47,044 nt of DNA. Source: a virus. Under the pieces are notes generated by a model that worked only from the letters and a program-made list of their open reading frames with translations, was not told the origin of the DNA and did not search any database. Numbering within the stretch: the first letter of the stretch is position 1; each line of letters starts with the position of its first letter. A program made the translations under genes and the position numbers. Below are positions 29,600-47,044 of the stretch, in pieces. Where the stretch lies: IMG/VR virus record IMGVR_UViG_3300044734_000047, positions 1-47,044 of that record, one strand, 5' to 3'.

Positions 29600-30091
29600 T
29601 CATGCTGCCCTCAGTTGTTGAGCTCGTTCCGGATCGATATCCCCGACACTGATCCCGAGCTCGAGGAGGTGCTGTGGAAGCGCCCTGATCTCGTCGTCGC
29701 TGAGCGGGGGTGGGACAGGCTTTGGCGCCGTGTGGCGCTTGGGCGAGGTGAGCAGGCGGTCTGGCCTGGTGATCTTGCCCCATGCCATCGCCGCTTCTCG
29801 AAGTTCGCAAGCGCGCGGCAGGAACGGTTTCTTTCGGGCCCATTCCTCGGCGGCCGCTTCCAACCAATCCGGGTTGATGTCGGCGCAGTCCTTGGCGAGC
29901 AATGCGACGCGGGCGGCGTGATCTTCCTCATCCACCGAGTTCCGCGGCGGGTATCGCAGCCCCAGCTCGGCGGTAATCTTCACCGTCGCGGGCGATGGCT
30001 TCGTTTGCTGCCCGAAGCATGGTGAGCGTGGTGCTGGGCCCAGGTCCTGCCATGCGCTGAGCGCCGTGCCGATGTCCGTTGGTTCGCCCAT
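29600..30091 (-). CDS. phage hypothetical, replication region
   Basis: A 163-aa protein starting MGEPTDIGTALSAWQDLGPA. The central part (SPATVKITAELGLRYPP, AARVALLAKDCADINPDWLEAAAEEWARKKPFLPRACELREAA in parts) recurs in alphaproteobacterial prophages beside replication-type HTH proteins. ATG 30091 has a GGAAG ribosome binding site. Its first 164 bases overlap the end of the gene upstream in another frame. It may help load the replisome; this is only inferred from the neighbour. Confidence 0.6.
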   Translation of the reverse strand: MGEPTDIGTALSAWQDLGPAPRSPCFGQQTKPSPATVKITAELGLRYPPRNSVDEEDHAARVALLAKDCADINPDWLEAAAEEWARKKPFLPRACELREAAMAWGKITRPDRLLTSPKRHTAPKPVPPPLSDDEIRALPQHLLELGISVGDIDPERAQQLRAA

Positions 30092-30656
30092 CTTCCGGTT
30101 CCTCGATTTTGAATACGCCCTGCCAACAATGCTCCGTCGATTGATCCAGCACGTCGCCCGGCGGATATCCGGCGTCGTCAAGGGCCAGAAGCTTGGCGAG
30201 CAGGCGCTCCTCGGCCGTGTCGTTGACAGGCTTTTTGATCTGCCGCCGCATCGCCTTGAACGCTTTCCACTGAGGGGACGAAAGGATCGCGCGCGCCCGC
30301 ACCTCTCTCTCCTCTATAATTACGGTTCTTGATGGTTTGTCCGAAGCGGCTTCGGGGGTCAGCGGAAGCGTCTTCGGGGGCGAAATCTCTTCGGGGGCGA
30401 AATCTCTTCGGGGGTGGACGGTATAATTGCACCCCTTCCCCAGCACCTCCCGGCGCGTGAGGTGCTTCGCCTCGACCAGCGACCTGACGGCGGCCTGGAT
30501 GGTGCGGTCGGACTTGCTGCACTTACGCACGAGCGAGGCCATGGAGGGCCAGCAATGACCCTCGTCGTTCGCACTGTCCGCCAGTGCCAGAAGCACGATT
30601 TTCTCGCTATCCGGAAGGTCTAGGTCCCATACCTGAGTCATGACCCGCACGCTCAT
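29928..30656 (-). CDS. winged-helix replication-initiator-like protein
   Basis: A 242-aa protein. Residues 1-75 (LALADSANDEGHCWPSMASL and SDRTIQAAVRSLVEAKHLTR) are the classic helix_turn_helix_36 domain seen in phage replication initiators such as lambda-O-type proteins. The linker is Pro-rich with direct DNA repeats (FAPEEISPP). The C-terminus ends RAANEAIARDGEDYRRAGAA. Start 30656 gives an ATGA overlap with the upstream gene; the longer frame to 31163 is a shadow. Likely binds the phage origin. Confidence 0.72.
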   Translation of the reverse strand: MSVRVMTQVWDLDLPDSEKIVLLALADSANDEGHCWPSMASLVRKCSKSDRTIQAAVRSLVEAKHLTRREVLGKGCNYTVHPRRDFAPEEISPPKTLPLTPEAASDKPSRTVIIEEREVRARAILSSPQWKAFKAMRRQIKKPVNDTAEERLLAKLLALDDAGYPPGDVLDQSTEHCWQGVFKIEEPEDGRTNGHRHGAQRMAGPGPSTTLTMLRAANEAIARDGEDYRRAGAAIPAAELGG

Positions 30657-30997
30657 TTGCGCGCCCTGTCGAGGTAGCGCGACTCCGCGAGTAGCGAACC
30701 GACGTAGAGGTGAGCAGGCGGCCGTCCGGCGGCGCGGTCGCGCTTGATCAGTAGCGAGGCGATCTCCGTCAGCTCTCGGCGCGCGTCGCGGCACACTTTG
30801 GCCTTGACGCTGCCATGCTCGGCATGGCGAGTTTCCACCCAGGCCTTGACGAGCGCCGCGATTACCGCGCCCTCGCCCTTGGAGCGGTTGTGGAACAGAC
30901 GGCGACACGAGGACGAACAGAAGCGCTTGCCGAGTCCGCGCCCTCCCGGCTCGAAGCCGTCCCCGCAATTGGGGCAAATGATCTCCTGTTGTTCCAT
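30653..30997 (-). CDS. zinc-ribbon protein
   Basis: A 114-aa protein. The N-terminus has CPNCGDGFEPGGRGLGKRFC and then SSSCRR, giving a four-cysteine zinc site (residues 8, 11, 27, 31), as in DUF2116/zf-type ribbons for nucleic acids. The rest is helical. It is coupled to the replication-initiator gene by an ATGA overlap, suggesting a part in DNA metabolism. Confidence 0.65.
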   Translation of the reverse strand: MEQQEIICPNCGDGFEPGGRGLGKRFCSSSCRRLFHNRSKGEGAVIAALVKAWVETRHAEHGSVKAKVCRDARRELTEIASLLIKRDRAAGRPPAHLYVGSLLAESRYLDRARK

Positions 30998-31008
30998 GCG
31001 AAGGCGTG

Positions 31009-31227
31009 TTACATTGTTCCTGTGTTGCGGCGCTTGGGTGCCTTGCCCGCCTTAGGGGCACTTCGGCCCTCTGGCGGCGGTTTGGCGGGCTCGTATTCGT
31101 AATGGAGGAAAGGGCGTCCATCGGCGTCTTTGAGGTCGCCAGTGACGGGGCGGTAGCCGACACAGACCATTCCCTTCGGCGGGTTCGGAAGATTTGCAGC
31201 GCCGATGCTCACCGCTCTTCCTTCCAT
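31009..31227 (-). CDS. small hypothetical protein
   Basis: A 72-aa protein starting MEGRAVSIGAANLPNPPKGM. The middle (RPVTGDLKDADGRPFLHYEY) looks structured, and the tail is basic (APKAGKAPKRRNTG). Overlaps the DnaA-like gene by 19 bases. No family recognised. Confidence 0.5.
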   Translation of the reverse strand: MEGRAVSIGAANLPNPPKGMVCVGYRPVTGDLKDADGRPFLHYEYEPAKPPPEGRSAPKAGKAPKRRNTGTM

Positions 31228-34242: not shown

Positions 34243-34568
34243 GCCGCAAAAACCGAGCGATTAACCGAGGTTAGTTGCGAGGCGCGGGCTTTGCGTGCAG
34301 GTGAGTCGCAAGCGCCTGACGGGCTGGGCGATTCTCCGTGGTTAGGAGAGATGCTTTGCAGACCGATGTTGTTGTCCATCTGGACGGGCCGCCCGCGATC
34401 CAAATCCGCAAAGGGGTCGCGCGCGTTATCGACAAAACGGGCGGAATACGGATCGAGCGGGCGATGGCCCTTGAGGACCTTCAGGCATATGTTGAGCGCG
34501 GGCGCCGCGCGCTTGAGCGCTACTCCAACGGTGAGAGCGACGTCATCGAGGGCACCTGAGCCGTTCAC
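34239..34568 (-). CDS. hypothetical early protein
   Basis: A 109-aa frame from GTG 34568, in a GTGA overlap with the Cro-like stop, and with an ATGA overlap at its end. It begins VNGSGALDDVALTVGVALKR. No domain recognised. An antisense frame on the plus strand (34338-34559) looks almost as protein-like; I prefer this one because it is coupled to genes on both sides. Confidence 0.5.
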   Translation of the reverse strand: MNGSGALDDVALTVGVALKRAAPALNICLKVLKGHRPLDPYSARFVDNARDPFADLDRGRPVQMDNNIGLQSISPNHGESPSPSGACDSPARKARASQLTSVNRSVFAA

Positions 34569-34762
34569 GCGGCTTGCGCTTCAAACAGTTGCGGGAGAGG
34601 AACTTCCTTCTTCCGGGCCAGTGCGCGCAGGCCATCCCTCCTCCACTTCGGTATTGAGTTGGTCGATTTCCAGCTCGATACCGTTGTCGGTGCTAAATCC
34701 AGGGCGGTGGCGACCGCTACCGTGCCGCCAAGCGCATCGATGAATTGCTCGATCGTCTGCAT
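34565..34762 (-). CDS. Cro-like repressor
   Basis: A 65-aa protein. MQTIEQFIDALGGTVAVATA then LDLAPTTVSSWKSTNSIPKW is the YdaS/Cro-type helix-turn-helix, with the recognition helix around TTVSSWK. The ATG at 34762 lies only one or two bases past the expected transcription start of PL, so the mRNA may be leaderless. It is the first gene of the minus-strand early operon and faces the CI-like repressor gene across the operator region. Confidence 0.78.
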   Translation of the reverse strand: MQTIEQFIDALGGTVAVATALDLAPTTVSSWKSTNSIPKWRRDGLRALARKKEVPLPQLFEAQAA

Positions 34763-34769
34763 GCCCGTG

Positions 34770-34798
34770 ATGTTACGATATCCGTAACTTCCATGCAA
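34770..34798 (-). promoter_or_regulatory. early promoter PL with operator O1
   Basis: On the minus strand TTGCAT (34798-34793), a 17-base spacer and TAACAT (34775-34770) form a sigma70 promoter driving the Cro-like gene. The spacer and -10 contain the 17-bp palindrome at 34772-34788, with arms GTTACG and CGTAAC around ATATC. Repressor binding there would block the polymerase. The design is the mirror of PR at 36065-36093. Confidence 0.75.
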
Positions 34799-34804
34799 CA
34801 GCAA

Positions 34805-34821
34805 AATACGATAACCGTCAT
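34805..34821. promoter_or_regulatory. operator O2 (degenerate)
   Basis: AATACGATAACCGTCAT, a variant of the O1 palindrome that keeps TACGATA and CCGT. It lies 16 bases from O1 toward the repressor gene. Together with O3 it could allow cooperative repressor binding and autoregulation. Confidence 0.5.
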
Positions 34822-34830
34822 CGACAGCCT

Positions 34831-34847
34831 GTTACGGTTTCCGCACT
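34831..34847. promoter_or_regulatory. operator O3 (one good half-site)
   Basis: GTTACGGTTTCCGCACT has one perfect half-site (GTTACGG) and a poor second half. It lies nine bases before the ATG of the repressor gene, where binding could repress the repressor's own synthesis. Confidence 0.45.
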
Positions 34848-34855
34848 CTGCGGGG

Positions 34856-35542
34856 ATGGTCACGCATGACGAAATTCGGGCCGAGCTGATCCGCCAAATC
34901 GATGCGAAGCGGATCAAGCAGGTAGATGTCGCCCGCAAGCTTGGAATTGCCGCCGCAAGAGTCGCAGAAATCAGAAGCGGCCTCCGCAGGGTCCAGCCCG
35001 CAGAAATGCCGACGCTCGCCGAAATGCTCGGCCTAGCTGAAAGTCCGAAGTCGGCGCCTAGGCAGGTGGAGTCTACGTCCTTCATTCCGAACTGGGGAAG
35101 GGTGGCACAGGGAGTATGGATCGAGCAAACTGAGGCGCGAGACGAGCAGGATTTCGTCCCTTACGATCGACTAAAAGGGGACCCACCCCCGACAGACCTT
35201 TTTGCTGTGACGCCAGAGGGCACCAGCATGAACAAGGTGTTCGGCCCAAACACTCACTTGATCTGCCGAAGAATCCCTTTCGCGATAGGCTCATTCAAGC
35301 CGGGAAATTATGTCATCGTGGAGAGGACTGCACACGACCTGGTTGAGCTAACCTGTAAGCGTGTCGAGGTCGATGGAGAGGGCGTTTATTGGCTGCACAG
35401 CGAATCTAGTGATCCACGGTATCAAGATCCATGGCGCATAGGCAGACCCGATGAAGCGCACCACGCAGATGACGTGGAAATAAGGGTGATAGGAAAGGTG
35501 ATCCGAGCGGTTAGGAACTTCGAGAGTGTCGGAAAAGACTGA
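34856..35542 (+). CDS. CI-like repressor with S24/LexA peptidase domain
   Basis: A 228-aa protein. The N-terminal HTH (DAKRIKQVDVARKLGIAAAR then VAEIRSG) is followed by a LexA-type latent peptidase. The Ser is in PEGTSMNKV (S124) and the Lys in ELTCKRVEVDG (K168), spaced 44 residues, close to lambda CI. A possible self-cleavage site lies in the linker around residues 85-95. It keeps the lysogenic state by binding O1-O5 and is destroyed in the SOS response. The gene stands between two divergent early promoters, as cI does in lambda. Confidence 0.85.
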   Translation: MVTHDEIRAELIRQIDAKRIKQVDVARKLGIAAARVAEIRSGLRRVQPAEMPTLAEMLGLAESPKSAPRQVESTSFIPNWGRVAQGVWIEQTEARDEQDFVPYDRLKGDPPPTDLFAVTPEGTSMNKVFGPNTHLICRRIPFAIGSFKPGNYVIVERTAHDLVELTCKRVEVDGEGVYWLHSESSDPRYQDPWRIGRPDEAHHADDVEIRVIGKVIRAVRNFESVGKD

Positions 35543-36050
35543 GGAAACCTTAGGGTGCGTCTTGCTAGTCGCCGGAGTAGTGGCCGGTGGCTGGTGGTTG
35601 TACAGCCACTATGAAATTAGGAAGGTTGACCAAGCCCCCGTTGCGGTCATCAGACCGGCCGGGCTGATACAGATTTCCGCGATGCCGGACGGAACAGTTT
35701 GGCGCCTTGATGCGGACTCCGTAAGTGGCACCAAGGACATGCGTCAGGCGTGGGTACGAGAGGATCATAGCAAGGAGGCTGGCGCCACCTACAAAGAGGT
35801 AGCCGTGCTCTACCGCGTTAACTGTCAGACCACCGCTTTTCAGACCCTTAAACGTATATACTACGACGCGACCGGCCAAGTGCAATTCTCTATGAGCGGT
35901 GCGGTGTTGGGAAAGGACCCCGACTATGCGCCTCCTAATACTTACCTTGGTACCGTGGTTTCAGAGGCGTGCCGCCCAGAGTACGGCTCTCCCGTCGCGC
36001 CGTCCCCTCCGCCCATTATCATCACTCCCACCGCGCCATCGCAAAAATAA
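35526..36050 (+). CDS. membrane-anchored protein, Adhesin_E-like domain, in rex-like position
   Basis: A 174-aa protein. Residues 8-27 (LGCVLLVAGVVAGGWWLYSH) form one N-terminal membrane anchor. The periplasmic part (VWRLDADSVSG, AVLYRVNCQTTAFQTLKRIY, LGTVVSEAC) resembles the surface-adhesin protein E fold with a likely Cys pair. It overlaps the repressor gene end, so it is made in the lysogen. Genes in this place (lambda rexAB, sie genes) often exclude other phages. It may change the host envelope or block superinfection. Confidence 0.65.
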   Translation: MSEKTEETLGCVLLVAGVVAGGWWLYSHYEIRKVDQAPVAVIRPAGLIQISAMPDGTVWRLDADSVSGTKDMRQAWVREDHSKEAGATYKEVAVLYRVNCQTTAFQTLKRIYYDATGQVQFSMSGAVLGKDPDYAPPNTYLGTVVSEACRPEYGSPVAPSPPPIIITPTAPSQK

Positions 36051-36066
36051 TTACGATTTCCGTATT
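36050..36066. promoter_or_regulatory. operator O4
   Basis: ATTACGATTTCCGTATT, an imperfect palindrome with arms related to GTTACG/CGTAAC. It touches the -35 box of PR and lies 8 bases before O5. Two adjacent sites would favour cooperative repressor binding. Confidence 0.6.
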
Positions 36067-36093
36067 GACCTAGCGTTACGGATATCGTAACAA
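36065..36093 (+). promoter_or_regulatory. early promoter PR with operator O5
   Basis: TTGACC (36065-36070), a 17-base spacer and TAACAA (36088-36093) form a strong sigma70 promoter. GTTACGGATATCGTAAC at 36075-36091 is the exact reverse complement of O1 and covers spacer and -10. A start near 36100 leaves a leader of about 24 bases with GCGGAG before the ATG at 36124. It should drive the whole plus-strand early operon. Confidence 0.8.
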
Positions 36094-36123
36094 GGCTCCC
36101 GTACCCAACCGCGGAGCCCCACG

Positions 36124-36915
36124 ATGCAGTCAGCCCCCCTAATCGACGAGAAGCGCTGGCAGGAAGTCCAGAAACGCGGCCTCGCGACCGGAGCCCACTC
36201 GACCCCGAAGCAGGGCATGTGTGCGATGGAGGCCGTCGCCTATATCCGCCGCCAGCCTCATTCCGATCGCCCGCCCTGCGTCTCGCCGGTGATCGCCGCG
36301 TTCATGCGCTCTTGGAACGACGGCCTGCCCGACAACGAGCGGCACATTCTCCTCCCGCTGCTCCCGAAGTTGATCGACACTGCCGCTCCGGCCCTGGAAG
36401 AGCGACGCTCGCTGATGGCCGCGGACTGGCTGGTCCGCGTTCACACCCCCGCATGGCTTCGGCTGGCTGGGCTGAACGATAACGCCGACGCGCTGGAAAG
36501 CCTGCCCGAGATCATCGCCATGGCGCAAGTGCCCACGATCCGAGGGCCGATAGAGGCGGCAAGAAAAAATTCGGCCGCCGCATGGGACGCCGCACGGGCC
36601 GCCGCATGGGACGCCGCACGGGACGCCGCACGGGACGCCGCACGGGACGCCGCACGGGACGCCGCATGGGCCGCCGCATGGGACGCCGCACGGGACGCCG
36701 CACGGGACGCCGCACGGGACGCCGCACGGGACGCCGCATGGGCCGCCGCATGGGACGCCGCACGGGACGCCGCACGGGACGCCGCATGGGCCGCCGCATG
36801 GGACGCCGCACGGGACGCCGCAAAAGCGAAACTCGATCCGACCCGCCTTCAGCTTCAGCAGTCCGCCGTTACGCTGGTTGAGCGCATGTGCGCCCTGTCC
36901 GGCGGGGAGTCCTAA
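36124..36915 (+). CDS. first PR gene: Ala-rich AARD/AAWD repeat protein
   Basis: A 263-aa protein. Residues 1-140 form a globular part (MEAVAYIRRQPHSDRPP, LLPKLIDTAAPALEERRSLM, LVRVHTPAWLRLAGL) of a type common in phages and sometimes linked to immunity-like proteins. Residues 151-233 are about 20 tetrads of the form AA(R/W)(D/A), which should make one long amphipathic helix with Arg/Asp bridges. It is the first gene behind PR, thus strongly expressed after induction. Function unknown. Confidence 0.7.
   Translation: MQSAPLIDEKRWQEVQKRGLATGAHSTPKQGMCAMEAVAYIRRQPHSDRPPCVSPVIAAFMRSWNDGLPDNERHILLPLLPKLIDTAAPALEERRSLMAADWLVRVHTPAWLRLAGLNDNADALESLPEIIAMAQVPTIRGPIEAARKNSAAAWDAARAAAWDAARDAARDAARDAARDAAWAAAWDAARDAARDAARDAARDAAWAAAWDAARDAARDAAWAAAWDAARDAAKAKLDPTRLQLQQSAVTLVERMCALSGGES
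36574..36822 (+). repeat. 12-bp tandem repeat with 72-bp higher-order period
   Basis: About 20 copies of a 12-bp unit GCCGCACGGGAC or its variants GCCGCATGGGAC and GCCGCATGGGCC. Units are ordered in blocks that begin with two W units and continue with up to four R units; two blocks are full and two are shortened, as expected from slippage or unequal recombination. All six frames stay open here, so frames on the other strand are artefacts. Confidence 0.9.
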
Positions 36916-36918
36916 CCC

Positions 36919-37305
36919 ATGGCCTCCCCAACCGATCAGAGATTGTCGCAGGGTGATACGCCGACCCTAACGGGGCCGTGGTCGTTTCGTTACTTCATGG
37001 AGCCGGTTGGTAAACACGACGACAACTTCCACCTTATTGACGGCCCAGAAGGTGACCAAGGCAGCAGCATTCTCGAAGGATCATTCGTCTTTCCGGGAAC
37101 GCATTCTGAGGCGCTGAAGTACGCTCGCCTGATCGCCTCGGCGCCGGAACTGTACGAGGCTGACGACGACGCGGCTGATTTCCTGATAGCCAATTACGGC
37201 AGCGTTGCCGACCCGAACAACCGCGACGGCTGGTCATGCCCGGACGCTTACGCAGTTTATCAAAAGCTCGTCGCAGCCACAAGCAAAGCCAGAGGGGAAG
37301 CCTGA
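36919..37305 (+). CDS. hypothetical early protein
   Basis: A 128-aa acidic protein. The phrase ALKYARLIASAPELYEADDD is typical of a large group of phage early proteins with unknown function. An N-terminal beta-rich half (WSFRYFMEPVGKHDDNFHLI) precedes it. It ends in a TGATG overlap with the next gene. Confidence 0.65.
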   Translation: MASPTDQRLSQGDTPTLTGPWSFRYFMEPVGKHDDNFHLIDGPEGDQGSSILEGSFVFPGTHSEALKYARLIASAPELYEADDDAADFLIANYGSVADPNNRDGWSCPDAYAVYQKLVAATSKARGEA

Positions 37306-39891: not shown

Positions 39892-40388
39892 TGGGCGTTC
39901 GTATTGACCTAACCAAGATCCAGGTCAGCGCCGTCGCGACGATGTTGCGCGACGTGCTTACCGAGGACGAGCGCGCCTACGTCGACACCTTGGAAGGCGA
40001 GACGAACCTGTTTGAGGCCGTGCGCCTGCTCCTCGACAGGATCGAGGAGGACGACGGCGTTCAGAAGGAACTCGCCGAGCAAATCGACGCCCGCCGCTGC
40101 CGCAAGGACCGCGCCGGCGAGCGTGTGAAGCACAACCGGGAAGCGATCATGGCGCTGATCCAATGCGCCGGGCTCGACAAGCTCACCCTCCCCGAAGCCA
40201 CGCTATCCGTCCGCGCGGTGCCGCCGAAACCCATCGTCAATGACGAGACGGAAGTGCCGGACTCGCTCTGCAAAATCAAGAGATCGCCCGACATGGCAGC
40301 AATTAGGGCCGAGGTGGAATCCGGTCGCGCCGTGCCGGGCGTCACCCTCGACAACGGCGGAACCTCTTTGACCGTGAGGCGCAAATGA
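39891..40388 (+). CDS. Siphovirus Gp157-like protein
   Basis: A 165-aa protein with the layout of Sipho_Gp157: a helical N-terminal half (LEGETNLFEAVRLLLDRIEE, KELAEQIDARRCRKDRAGER) and a beta C-terminal half (LPEATLSVRAVPPKPIVNDE, VPDSLCKIKRSPDMAAIRAE, VPGVTLDNGGTSLTVR). Family members lie beside single-strand annealing proteins, as here, and are thought to take part in phage recombination. Confidence 0.82.
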   Translation: MGVRIDLTKIQVSAVATMLRDVLTEDERAYVDTLEGETNLFEAVRLLLDRIEEDDGVQKELAEQIDARRCRKDRAGERVKHNREAIMALIQCAGLDKLTLPEATLSVRAVPPKPIVNDETEVPDSLCKIKRSPDMAAIRAEVESGRAVPGVTLDNGGTSLTVRRK

Positions 40389-41020
40389 CCTTCACCCCCG
40401 AACAGACCGCCGAGCTCGCCAAGCCGCTTTCCTCGTCCGCCGTCAAGGATCGGCAGCAAGGCGGGCGCAAGGTGTCCTACATCGAAGGCTGGCACGCGAT
40501 CGCCGAGGCCAATCGGATCTTCGGCTTTGATGCATGGACCCGCGAGACAGACGAAATCCGTTGCGTTTCCGAACGGGAGCGCCAGCTCGGCTCGGGCAAG
40601 GCGGGGTGGGGCGTCACCTACGTCTGTCGCGTTCGTATTCGCGTCGGCAACGTCATGCGCGAGGGATGCGGCGCCGGGCATGGCATCGACCAGGACGTGG
40701 GCCAGGCTCACGAAAGCGCGATCAAGGAAGCCGAGACTGACGCGATGAAGCGGGCGCTGATGACGTTCGGCAATCCGTTCGGCCTCGCCCTCTACGACAA
40801 GACGCAGAGCAACGTCTCGGACGAGAAGCCGGTGCCGGCCGACATTCAGCGGCTGTTGGATGACGTCGGGGCCGCCGAAACGCTTCTCGTGCTTCAGGCC
40901 CTGTGGCGCGACAAGGGCAAGCGGGTATTCGATGCGGGCGGACCCTACAGCGCTGCCGTCAATGACGCCTTCAACGCCCGCAAGGCCGCCATCGATGCGA
41001 TGGACCGGAGCGCAGCATGA
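40385..41020 (+). CDS. Rad52/Rad22-like single-strand annealing protein
   Basis: A 211-aa protein. VSYIEGWHAIAEANRIFGFD, then GVTYVCRVRIRVGNVMREGC and GHGIDQDVGQAHESAIKEAE followed by DAMKRALMTFGNPFGLALYD are the typical Rad52 core. It anneals complementary single strands in phage recombination and repair, probably together with the Gp157-like and NinB-like proteins. ATGA overlaps on both sides. Confidence 0.9.
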   Translation: MTFTPEQTAELAKPLSSSAVKDRQQGGRKVSYIEGWHAIAEANRIFGFDAWTRETDEIRCVSERERQLGSGKAGWGVTYVCRVRIRVGNVMREGCGAGHGIDQDVGQAHESAIKEAETDAMKRALMTFGNPFGLALYDKTQSNVSDEKPVPADIQRLLDDVGAAETLLVLQALWRDKGKRVFDAGGPYSAAVNDAFNARKAAIDAMDRSAA

Positions 41021-41824: not shown

Positions 41825-42294
41825 TGGCCCACCGCATCCTCACCAACGCGGCCGAGCTGGACGACTTCACTCGCTTCCTCGGCAACCTCAAGCTGCCGGT
41901 GACGGTGGAATGGGTATTAGGCCGGGACCGCACCCGCGACCAGAACGCCCTTCAGTGGCTTTGGGCGACCGAGGCTGCTCACCAATACGGCGACCGTACT
42001 GCCGACGAAATGCAGCGGGAGTGGAAACTCCGCTACGGCGTGCCGATCCTGAGAGAGGACAGCGCGGAGTTTCGGACGGTCTACGACCAGGCCATTCGCC
42101 CGCTGCCCTACGAACTCAAGGTCGAGGCGATGCGGTTCATCCCCGTGACCAGCGAAATGAAGGTGCGGCAAATGGTCCGCTACCTCGACACGATCCAGCG
42201 CGAGTGCCTGTCGAACGGGCTGAAGCTCACGGATCCCGATCCCGACCTCGCTACCTATCAGGCCCGATATCGCGACAGGAAGGAAGCGGCATGA
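41824..42294 (+). CDS. NinB-like recombination protein
   Basis: A 156-aa protein. RTRDQNALQWLWATEAAHQY, then EMQREWKLRYGVPILREDS and FIPVTSEMKVRQMVRYLDTI match the layout of NinB/Orf family proteins of lambdoid phages, which bind single-stranded DNA and SSB and mediate recombinase loading. Here it would help the Rad52-like annealase. One-base overlap with the small gene before it. Confidence 0.7.
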   Translation: MAHRILTNAAELDDFTRFLGNLKLPVTVEWVLGRDRTRDQNALQWLWATEAAHQYGDRTADEMQREWKLRYGVPILREDSAEFRTVYDQAIRPLPYELKVEAMRFIPVTSEMKVRQMVRYLDTIQRECLSNGLKLTDPDPDLATYQARYRDRKEAA

Positions 42295-45818: not shown

Positions 45819-46097
45819 ATGGGGGAGCGTTGTAAGACGCGCGAGGCCGCTGCGATTACGGGCCTCGACATTCGCACCTTGCAAGAGAAGGCCGCCCGGG
45901 GCGAAATACCCGGCGCGGAGAAGCCGTTCGGGCGTTGGACATTCGACGTGGCGGCGCTCCGCCGATTGAGAGGAAGACCATGCCACAGGGCATCTACTCG
46001 CGCGGCGGGATATACTGGGCGCGTTTCAAGGTCCGGGGCCATGAATATCGAGCGAGCCTACGAACTCGTTCTCTCGCAGTCGCGAAGCGGCGGTTGA
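45819..46097 (+). CDS. excisionase-like HTH protein
   Basis: A 92-aa protein. Residues 7-50 (TREAAAITGLDIRTLQEKAA then FGRWTFDVAALRRL) match the HTH_17/AlpA-type excisionase domain. It lies directly before the integrase and overlaps it by 118 bases; the part in the overlap is low in recognisable structure. It should bend DNA for excision and favour the lytic direction. Confidence 0.68.
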   Translation: MGERCKTREAAAITGLDIRTLQEKAARGEIPGAEKPFGRWTFDVAALRRLRGRPCHRASTRAAGYTGRVSRSGAMNIERAYELVLSQSRSGG

Positions 46098-47044
46098 AGG
46101 CGCTGCGCCAGCAGGTGGAAGATACCGCCTATTTCGGCGCCGCAGAGCCCGTGTCGTGGCCGACTGCCGTCGTCTCATGGGACGCGGCGATCAAACGCAC
46201 CCGTAAGCGCCCGGCGACTATGGCGCGCTATCTCGTCAGCCTAGGGCAGCTTCGGCCATGGTTGGATCCGTGCCTGGTCCAGAAGATCGACCTCGACTTG
46301 CTGCGAACGATCGTGCGGGAGCGGCGGAAGGTGGCGAGCAATGCGACGGTGCGACGCGACCTTACCGCGGTGTCCAGCGTCCTCGATCACGCCATGGACG
46401 AAGGCTGGATCGAGGAAAACCCGGCTCGCATGTTCGACCGGCGGCGGCTGAAGGAGGATCGTGAGCCCATCGTGCTGCCACAACCGGAAGCCATCGCCGC
46501 CGTTCTCGTGCTCGGTAGCCGCTTCGTGGACATGGCCGAGCTCGCCCGCGAGACGGGAATGCGGGAAGAGGAAATCGCCTCGCTCCGCCATAGCCAAGTC
46601 GACCGTGACCGCATGGCCGCCTCGCTCACCTACACCAAGGGCCGCCGCGCGCGAGAGGTGCCGCTGTCGGAAAATGCGCTGGAGATAATCGACCGGCAAC
46701 CTCAGTTCCTTCGTTCCCCGTTCGTCTTCTGGAGGGGCGCCGGCGAGCGCTTCATCAACGTCGCCTCGCAGTTTCACGCCACGGTCAAGCGTGCGGCACG
46801 AAACGCGGCACAGCCCATCGCCCGGTTCCGGTTCCACGATCTGCGGCACCTGTTCGCGGTCGAATATCTGCGCCAGCGGAAGGGCTCGCTGTACGATCTG
46901 CAGCTGATCCTCGGGCACGCATCGATCAAGACGACAGAGCAATATCTCGATCACCTGACACCGGAGGAGCAAGCTGCCGCGCGTCAGGGGGTGTCACAGA
47001 ATCCGGCACAAGATGAACGGTTCGGAGGCGAAAATGCTGGCTAA
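45980..47044 (+). CDS. tyrosine recombinase (phage integrase)
   Basis: A 354-aa enzyme. N-terminal arm-binding and core-binding parts (residues 1-165) precede the catalytic domain with R195 (TGMREEEIASL), K220 (TKGRRAREVPL), H286 and R289 (HDLRHLF), H313 (LGHASI) and the nucleophile Y322 (TEQYLDHL). ATG 45980 has a GAGGAAG box; the frame runs upstream to 45935 but that part is a shadow of the excisionase. The gene ends at the window edge, so the attachment site probably lies just outside or at the very end. No att repeat could be identified within the window. Confidence 0.92.
   Translation: MPQGIYSRGGIYWARFKVRGHEYRASLRTRSLAVAKRRLKALRQQVEDTAYFGAAEPVSWPTAVVSWDAAIKRTRKRPATMARYLVSLGQLRPWLDPCLVQKIDLDLLRTIVRERRKVASNATVRRDLTAVSSVLDHAMDEGWIEENPARMFDRRRLKEDREPIVLPQPEAIAAVLVLGSRFVDMAELARETGMREEEIASLRHSQVDRDRMAASLTYTKGRRAREVPLSENALEIIDRQPQFLRSPFVFWRGAGERFINVASQFHATVKRAARNAAQPIARFRFHDLRHLFAVEYLRQRKGSLYDLQLILGHASIKTTEQYLDHLTPEEQAAARQGVSQNPAQDERFGGENAG

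Follow-up and report, generated by a model that had tools for sequence, protein, structure and literature searches.

Does the immunity region of the virus recorded as IMGVR_UViG_3300044734_000047 hold a switch of the lambda type, in which one repressor acts on operators at both early promoters and bridges them across its own gene? The window analysed here is the whole of this single IMG/VR virus record (47,044 bp, class linear), and the region in question lies between two early promoters at positions 34770 to 36093. An initial annotation had described an identical 17-bp operator at both promoters in inverted orientation, which was borne out: GTTACGGATATCGTAAC occurs at 34772–34788 on the minus strand (O1) and, as an exact inverted copy, at 36075–36091 on the plus strand (O5), 1303 bp apart. 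No further site within three mismatches was present in the window, where 0.01 were expected, and none of 100 shuffles reached two copies. The promoter hexamers and 17-bp spacers were also as annotated, with each copy of the 17-mer filling one spacer: the leftward promoter has its −35 (TTGCAT) at 34798–34793 and its −10 (TAACAT) at 34775–34770 on the minus strand, and the right early promoter has its −35 (TTGACC) at 36065–36070 and its −10 (TAACAA) at 36088–36093 on the plus strand. Their lambda names had to be exchanged. What had been called PL is the cro promoter, equivalent to lambda PR, because a cro-like gene begins 10 bp to the left of O1, and the rightward promoter is the lambda PL equivalent, because it leads to an annealing protein and an integrase. 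Between the two promoters lie, as proposed, the repressor and one further gene, here a cI-like gene (34856–35542) and a companion (35526–36050), both on the plus strand.

Three more degenerate sites had been placed next to these copies, two of which scored well. With an operator matrix built from 104 sites in 26 other phages, the top four scores in the window fell to O4 (36050–36066, plus strand, overlapping the −35 of the right promoter; 27.3), O1 (25.0), O5 (24.9) and O2 (34805–34821, plus strand; 21.5), compared with 19.0 for the best of 60 shuffles; the window had supplied part of the seed for the matrix that selected the training sites, and the window score is thus not wholly independent. 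The third, O3 (34831–34847, plus strand), is weak alone, being degenerate here but good in many relatives.

The case for the sites is settled by relatives, which also make the paired-operator observation more useful. A search that started from the repressor, using a profile from a four-row repressor alignment against viral contigs and named genomes, returned 10 loci from the contigs; the named genomes yielded one, in a prophage of Novosphingobium fuchskuhlense. All 10 viral loci had at least two sites in the cro–cI gap and two sites beyond cI (L019 was read on L018, L020 on L003/L015, and one record's locus was cut inside cI). Starting instead from a pattern that described the right promoter alone, we matched 25 stretches of viral contigs, and a script found the left array in 22 of them as well; the three exceptions are L061, a fragment of the L028 record, where both arrays are present, L066, with a changed operator, and L074, with weak sites. 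Among 385 sampled genomes of the class, the same pattern occurred in one, namely the Novosphingobium genome on which the sample was centred. Within the Novosphingobium family, the repressor profile matched 92 of 397 genomes at 1e-8 or better; among the matches listed (30 family-search loci), this operator class was present in four, one being the Novosphingobium prophage again. After removal of pieces of one record and of records with identical operators, 27 distinct phages including the window carried at least two sites in the cro–cI gap and two at the right promoter, so that the search of relatives for the same pair of sites, suggested by the initial annotation, came out in its favour. A literature search for CI repressors of sphingomonad prophages returned nothing on the subject, which says nothing beyond the collection searched.

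Spacing within the arrays was near-fixed over the 27 phages (O1–O2, 32–35 bp; O4–O5, 23–26 bp), and the distance between arrays, measured from O1 to O5, ranged from 615 to 2350 bp. A right-promoter −35 of TTGAC stood at a 17-bp spacer in 23 of the 27, and the hexamer was shifted in the other four. On these comparative data, functionless palindromes produced by chance or by repeats can be regarded as already refuted. A version of the right-promoter pattern with another end did match stretches with no array (8 of 12), as such an explanation would allow, but the geometry is conserved in 27 phages and a mere 0.01 of such sites were expected in the window. The other four of those 12 stretches were L096, which is the L015 record, two new members (L091 and L093) and L090, in which O1 and O5 are present with no O4. 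A further right-promoter pattern matched 10 stretches, four of them already known and six (L097–L102) lacking paired arrays.

The two arrays also change together. O1 and O5 differed by a mean of 2.2 mismatches within a phage and 3.4 between phages, a difference that none of 20,000 permutations reached; O1/O4 (P = 0.006) and O2/O4 (P = 0.04) showed the same trend, and O2/O5 did not (P = 0.21). At more distant repressor loci, a de novo search for paired dyads recovered different operator words, each flanking the repressor gene on either side: L033 (TTCCG) and L066 (CTACG) have the full 3+2 layout, and the other words are ATCCG in L036, TTATCC in L037, ATGCTAT in L039 and TGCGAT in L046. Loose half-site matches were not far above shuffles in L033 (7 versus 2.3), L036 (8 versus 3.2) and L066 (7 versus 1.5), and these three calls therefore rest on paired position and spacing. 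We did not count L040 as a variant, since shuffles equalled its score, nor the pairs called in L041 and L042 (both ambiguous), L047 and L051. On the sequences compared, operator specificity has thus changed more than once, both arrays together, and this joint change and the within-phage match of O1 and O5 point to one phage protein that very probably reads both arrays. Separately, the six variant loci combine other specificities with the same two-sided layout and form a natural series for the study of repressor specificity.

Which protein this would be depends on the genes beside the arrays. The cI-like gene encodes 228 amino acids with an S24 peptidase domain (Peptidase_S24, 3e-8; phrog_4 repressor, 2e-14) and an N-terminal helix-turn-helix that matched HTH_3 at 0.006, under its cut-off. 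It diverges from the cro-like gene (34565–34762, minus strand), with O1–O3 in the gap; the latter encodes a 65-amino-acid helix-turn-helix protein with matches to phrog_8008 (DNA binding protein) and, short of the curated cut-off, to Pfam P22_Cro (4e-5); the YdaS_toxin model scored about equally. In 26 of the 27 phages, the cI start codon (ATG or GTG) stands exactly 51 bp downstream of where O2 begins. An alternative cI start at 34793 was set aside, as an upstream start codon is not consistent in relatives and the fixed 51-bp step favours 34856. The cro-like start codon at 34762 is 7 nt past the −10, and in 22 of 26 phages the first cro ATG lies 6–8 nt past it, with TTGC at the −35 in 23 of 26 (the 27th has no sequence there). 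From these start-codon distances we predict leaderless cI and cro mRNAs, with cI transcription starting at its start codon and O2 therefore centred at −43. The predicted cI maintenance promoter (−35 TCGACA, 34821–34826; −10 CACTCT, 34844–34849; plus strand) has TCGAC in 21 of 27 phages and a CAATGT −10 in 12 of 27. For comparison, lambda OR2 lies at about −42 and the lambda cI mRNA is leaderless.

The main reader of the sites could instead be the Cro-like protein or some other regulator, as the sequence of a site does not by itself reveal the protein that binds it, and the Cro proteins of phiKO2 and PY54 read one site only (PMC4997575, PMC4488713). This is improbable, given that a search by CI similarity alone recovers the operators and that O2 keeps a constant spacing to the cI start codon. 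At the presumed self-cleavage site of the S24 domain, the window CI has Q-G (VAQGVW), as do L025, L059 and L068; L018, L021, L022, L026 and L078 have A-G there.

We return to the reading of a lambda-type immunity module whose own CI would bind both arrays and bridge them in a loop, to which we assign a probability of roughly 0.8. That repressor-controlled operators bracket the immunity region as in lambda, in another lineage, is strongly supported by the relatives. The sequence itself shows where the sites lie, how they are spaced, that they are conserved and that they change together; binding by CI and Cro, activation, autoregulation and looping are what we infer, as follows. CI would occupy three sites in the cI–cro gap and two more at the opposite early promoter; with O1 and O5 between −35 and −10 and O4 on the −35, its binding would silence the two early promoters in a lysogen. 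At O2, whose centre lies at −43 if the cI mRNA is leaderless as predicted, it would probably activate the cI promoter, and at O3 it would turn that promoter down, while Cro would probably read the same sites or a subset of them. CI dimers at the two arrays would probably bridge into a loop of ~1.3 kb holding cI and the companion gene.

Several points weigh against this reading or parts of it. O3 of the window scores 8.9, sixth and below an unrelated place at 41984 (11.0), and its assignment therefore rests on position, 26 bp from O2 as in relatives; the third left site is missing altogether in 7 of the 27 phages (L027, L059, L060, L063, L068, L071 and L078). A strict sigma-70 scan of 34500–37000 called neither early promoter, the −10 hexamers being poor, and the promoter calls therefore rest on conservation in relatives. 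Because the window contributed to the seed of the matrix that selected the 27 sets, the quality of their sites is partly circular, though not the presence of a second array, and the O1/O5 permutation test ignores phylogenetic relatedness. Finally, 19 of the 30 loci listed from the family search lacked accepted paired sites; many of these are probably not phage repressors.

Whether the arrays are joined is a separate matter, and each could control its own promoter through the same repressor with no loop. Each array is complete in itself, and the O1–O5 distance showed no helical phasing over the 27 phages (Rayleigh P = 0.26–0.82). Both arrays are also kept in L027, L028 and L072, whose repressors have no Pfam S24 match, and in L071, where the domain is absent by eye; as these four appear to lack S24, their induction would need a route other than self-cleavage. 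However, phasing would not be expected to matter at lengths of ~1 kb, and 3 of 3 lambdoid repressors tested form OL–OR loops, namely lambda CI, HK022 CI (natural distance, ~700 bp) and phiKO2 CB (~630 bp) (PMC8053113). The same source, a loopometer paper, describes the module as common to many lambdoid phages and looping as probably widespread. We consider independent arrays unlikely, if far from negligible, and looping between the arrays likely by analogy with phiKO2.

The companion gene within the proposed loop occupies the position of lambda rex. It starts inside the end of cI, and its stop abuts O4; its product has an N-terminal hydrophobic stretch (by eye) and an Adhesin_E match (Pfam, 1.1e-7). 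This gene varies between phages, being of the Adhesin_E type in the window, L015 and L025 (below the cut-off in L025) and encoding a PDZ protein in L060; none of the remaining companions tested reached the cut-off of a Pfam family, and PADLOC found nothing among the companions except one weak match, in L028. The companion is dispensable for the layout, because in L068 and L026 O4 follows almost directly on the cI stop (after 10 and 6 bp). The weak PADLOC match concerns L028 6647–7752, where two adjacent genes stand between cI and O4; we take them to resemble an antitoxin/toxin-type pair. Phages with a gap of 270–290 bp after cI carry a short convergent open reading frame on the opposite strand, of about 60–110 amino acids as called (L023 6598–6834 and L024 6595–6831, with the same gap in L081, L082, L030, L062, L064 and L083). 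It looks alike between two repressor types by eye, had no Pfam family in L024 or L062, and is possibly a small conserved gene.

The right promoter carries one further element, a dyad at 36094–36118 on the plus strand (GGCTCC, 36094–36099; GGAGCC, 36113–36118), found by dyad and pairing analysis. The 5′ arm falls downstream of the −10 and ahead of the predicted +1, the 3′ arm contains the Shine–Dalgarno sequence (GGAG) of the first right gene, and in relatives the dyad begins within a few bases downstream of O5. The first 14 nt after O5 paired with their own downstream sequence over 7.27 bp, compared with 5.70 bp for that of another phage (0/20,000; 26 phages). In 24 phages, the unpaired fraction of the Shine–Dalgarno sequence was 0.07 in read-through RNA, 0.37 in RNA begun 9 nt downstream of O5 and 0.30 when the 5′ arm was shuffled; exposure in the shorter RNA held in 23 of the 24, with the change occurring between starts at +5 and +7. 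L082, whose sequence ends in the leader, was dropped from both pairing tests, and L030 and L035, in which no start codon passed the length rule, from the Shine–Dalgarno test. Terminator-like sequence between the cI stop and O4 was seen in 3 of 27 phages, and no plus-strand terminator was found in the window at 34500–37000. Since the Shine–Dalgarno sequence would be hidden in read-through RNA and terminators are rare, the dyad suggests an insulator. The transcript of cI and its companion would read on, in the same direction, into the right early operon, as a rule meeting no terminator on the way, and the dyad would hide the Shine–Dalgarno sequence of the first early gene in this upstream-derived RNA only; RNA begun at the right promoter would miss the 5′ arm and hence be translatable.

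We put this forward tentatively, as more doubtful than probable. The hiding was not replicated in eight held-out loci, six of them with variant operators (unpaired, 0.16 in long versus 0.22 in short RNA), which weighs against an insulator; six of the eight went in the expected direction, clearly in L026 only, and the variant-operator loci were inconsistent. Of three more held-out loci, all with the main class of operator, two (L091 and L093) showed hiding and the third (L090) hardly any. A transcription start within 4 nt of O5 would leave the Shine–Dalgarno sequence always hidden by the hairpin. The dyad as the binding site of one conserved protein was rejected, as its arms differ between phages yet stay complementary. 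If true, the insulator would be a translational second lock on lysogeny. The transposase of IS10/Tn10 has a similar lock. In the passages of PMC5006887 and PMC3196728 available to us, that lock is not described.

Around the immunity region, the early operons are split, with cro and replication one way and recombination and integration the other. Leftward follow the cro-like gene, a methyltransferase-like gene (phrog_799), a DnaA-C-domain protein and an HTH_36 protein likely to act in replication (29928–31163, minus strand; Pfam, 1.9e-15), and the terminase, portal, head and tail families occupy the minus strand on the left side of the window. Rightward runs a long early operon that includes a Rad52/22-type annealing protein (40385–41020, plus strand; Pfam, 7e-38; in L026, ERF and YqaJ lie rightward) and ends with a tyrosine integrase at the far end of the right arm (45980–47044, plus strand; Phage_integrase, 5e-22). 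Its first gene (36124–36915, plus strand; phrog_8332, unknown function) was called as an open reading frame with a long internal tandem repeat; GACGCCGCACGG-like units recur at 36580–36825 and give a DAARDAAR-like protein repeat.

Together, these sphingomonad phages are new members of the known lambda-type switch and not a new kind of switch. They keep the lambda OL–OR layout, down to operator-in-spacer promoters and the fixed 51-bp step from O2 to cI, although their repressors have diverged into several C-terminal types; one host is Novosphingobium. They offer natural series both of loop lengths (0.6–2.35 kb) and of specificities for testing the evolution of looping switches. The likeness to lambda is one of layout and covers divergent cI and cro, operator clusters on both sides of the repressor gene and one more gene at the rex position, between cI and the distant promoter. 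Gene order in the window is that of lambda read in the opposite direction, and cro is also predicted to be leaderless here. Both use 17-bp operators, but lambda has six (PMC4997575), arranged 3+3 where the phages here have 3+2, and its arrays are about 2.3 kb apart (PMC5880393).

The telomere phage phiKO2 likewise has five operator sites arranged 3+2, with arrays ~630 bp apart and OL–OR looping by its CB repressor (PMC8053113, PMC4997575). The Ser/Lys pair is missing from the repressors of phiKO2 and N15, and the S24 domain apparently from those of a few relatives here; unlike the phages here, phiKO2 and N15 are linear plasmid prophages of enterobacterial hosts, with 16-bp sites and an OL that controls repA. 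HK022, whose CI loops over a natural distance of ~700 bp, differs in host. PY54 has leaderless cI and cro mRNAs, demonstrated there (PMC4488713) and predicted from geometry here, but only a single operator site. Rhizobium phage 16-3, an alphaproteobacterial temperate phage with oL1, oL2, oR1 and oR2 (PMC12429752), differs in its 2+2 sites.
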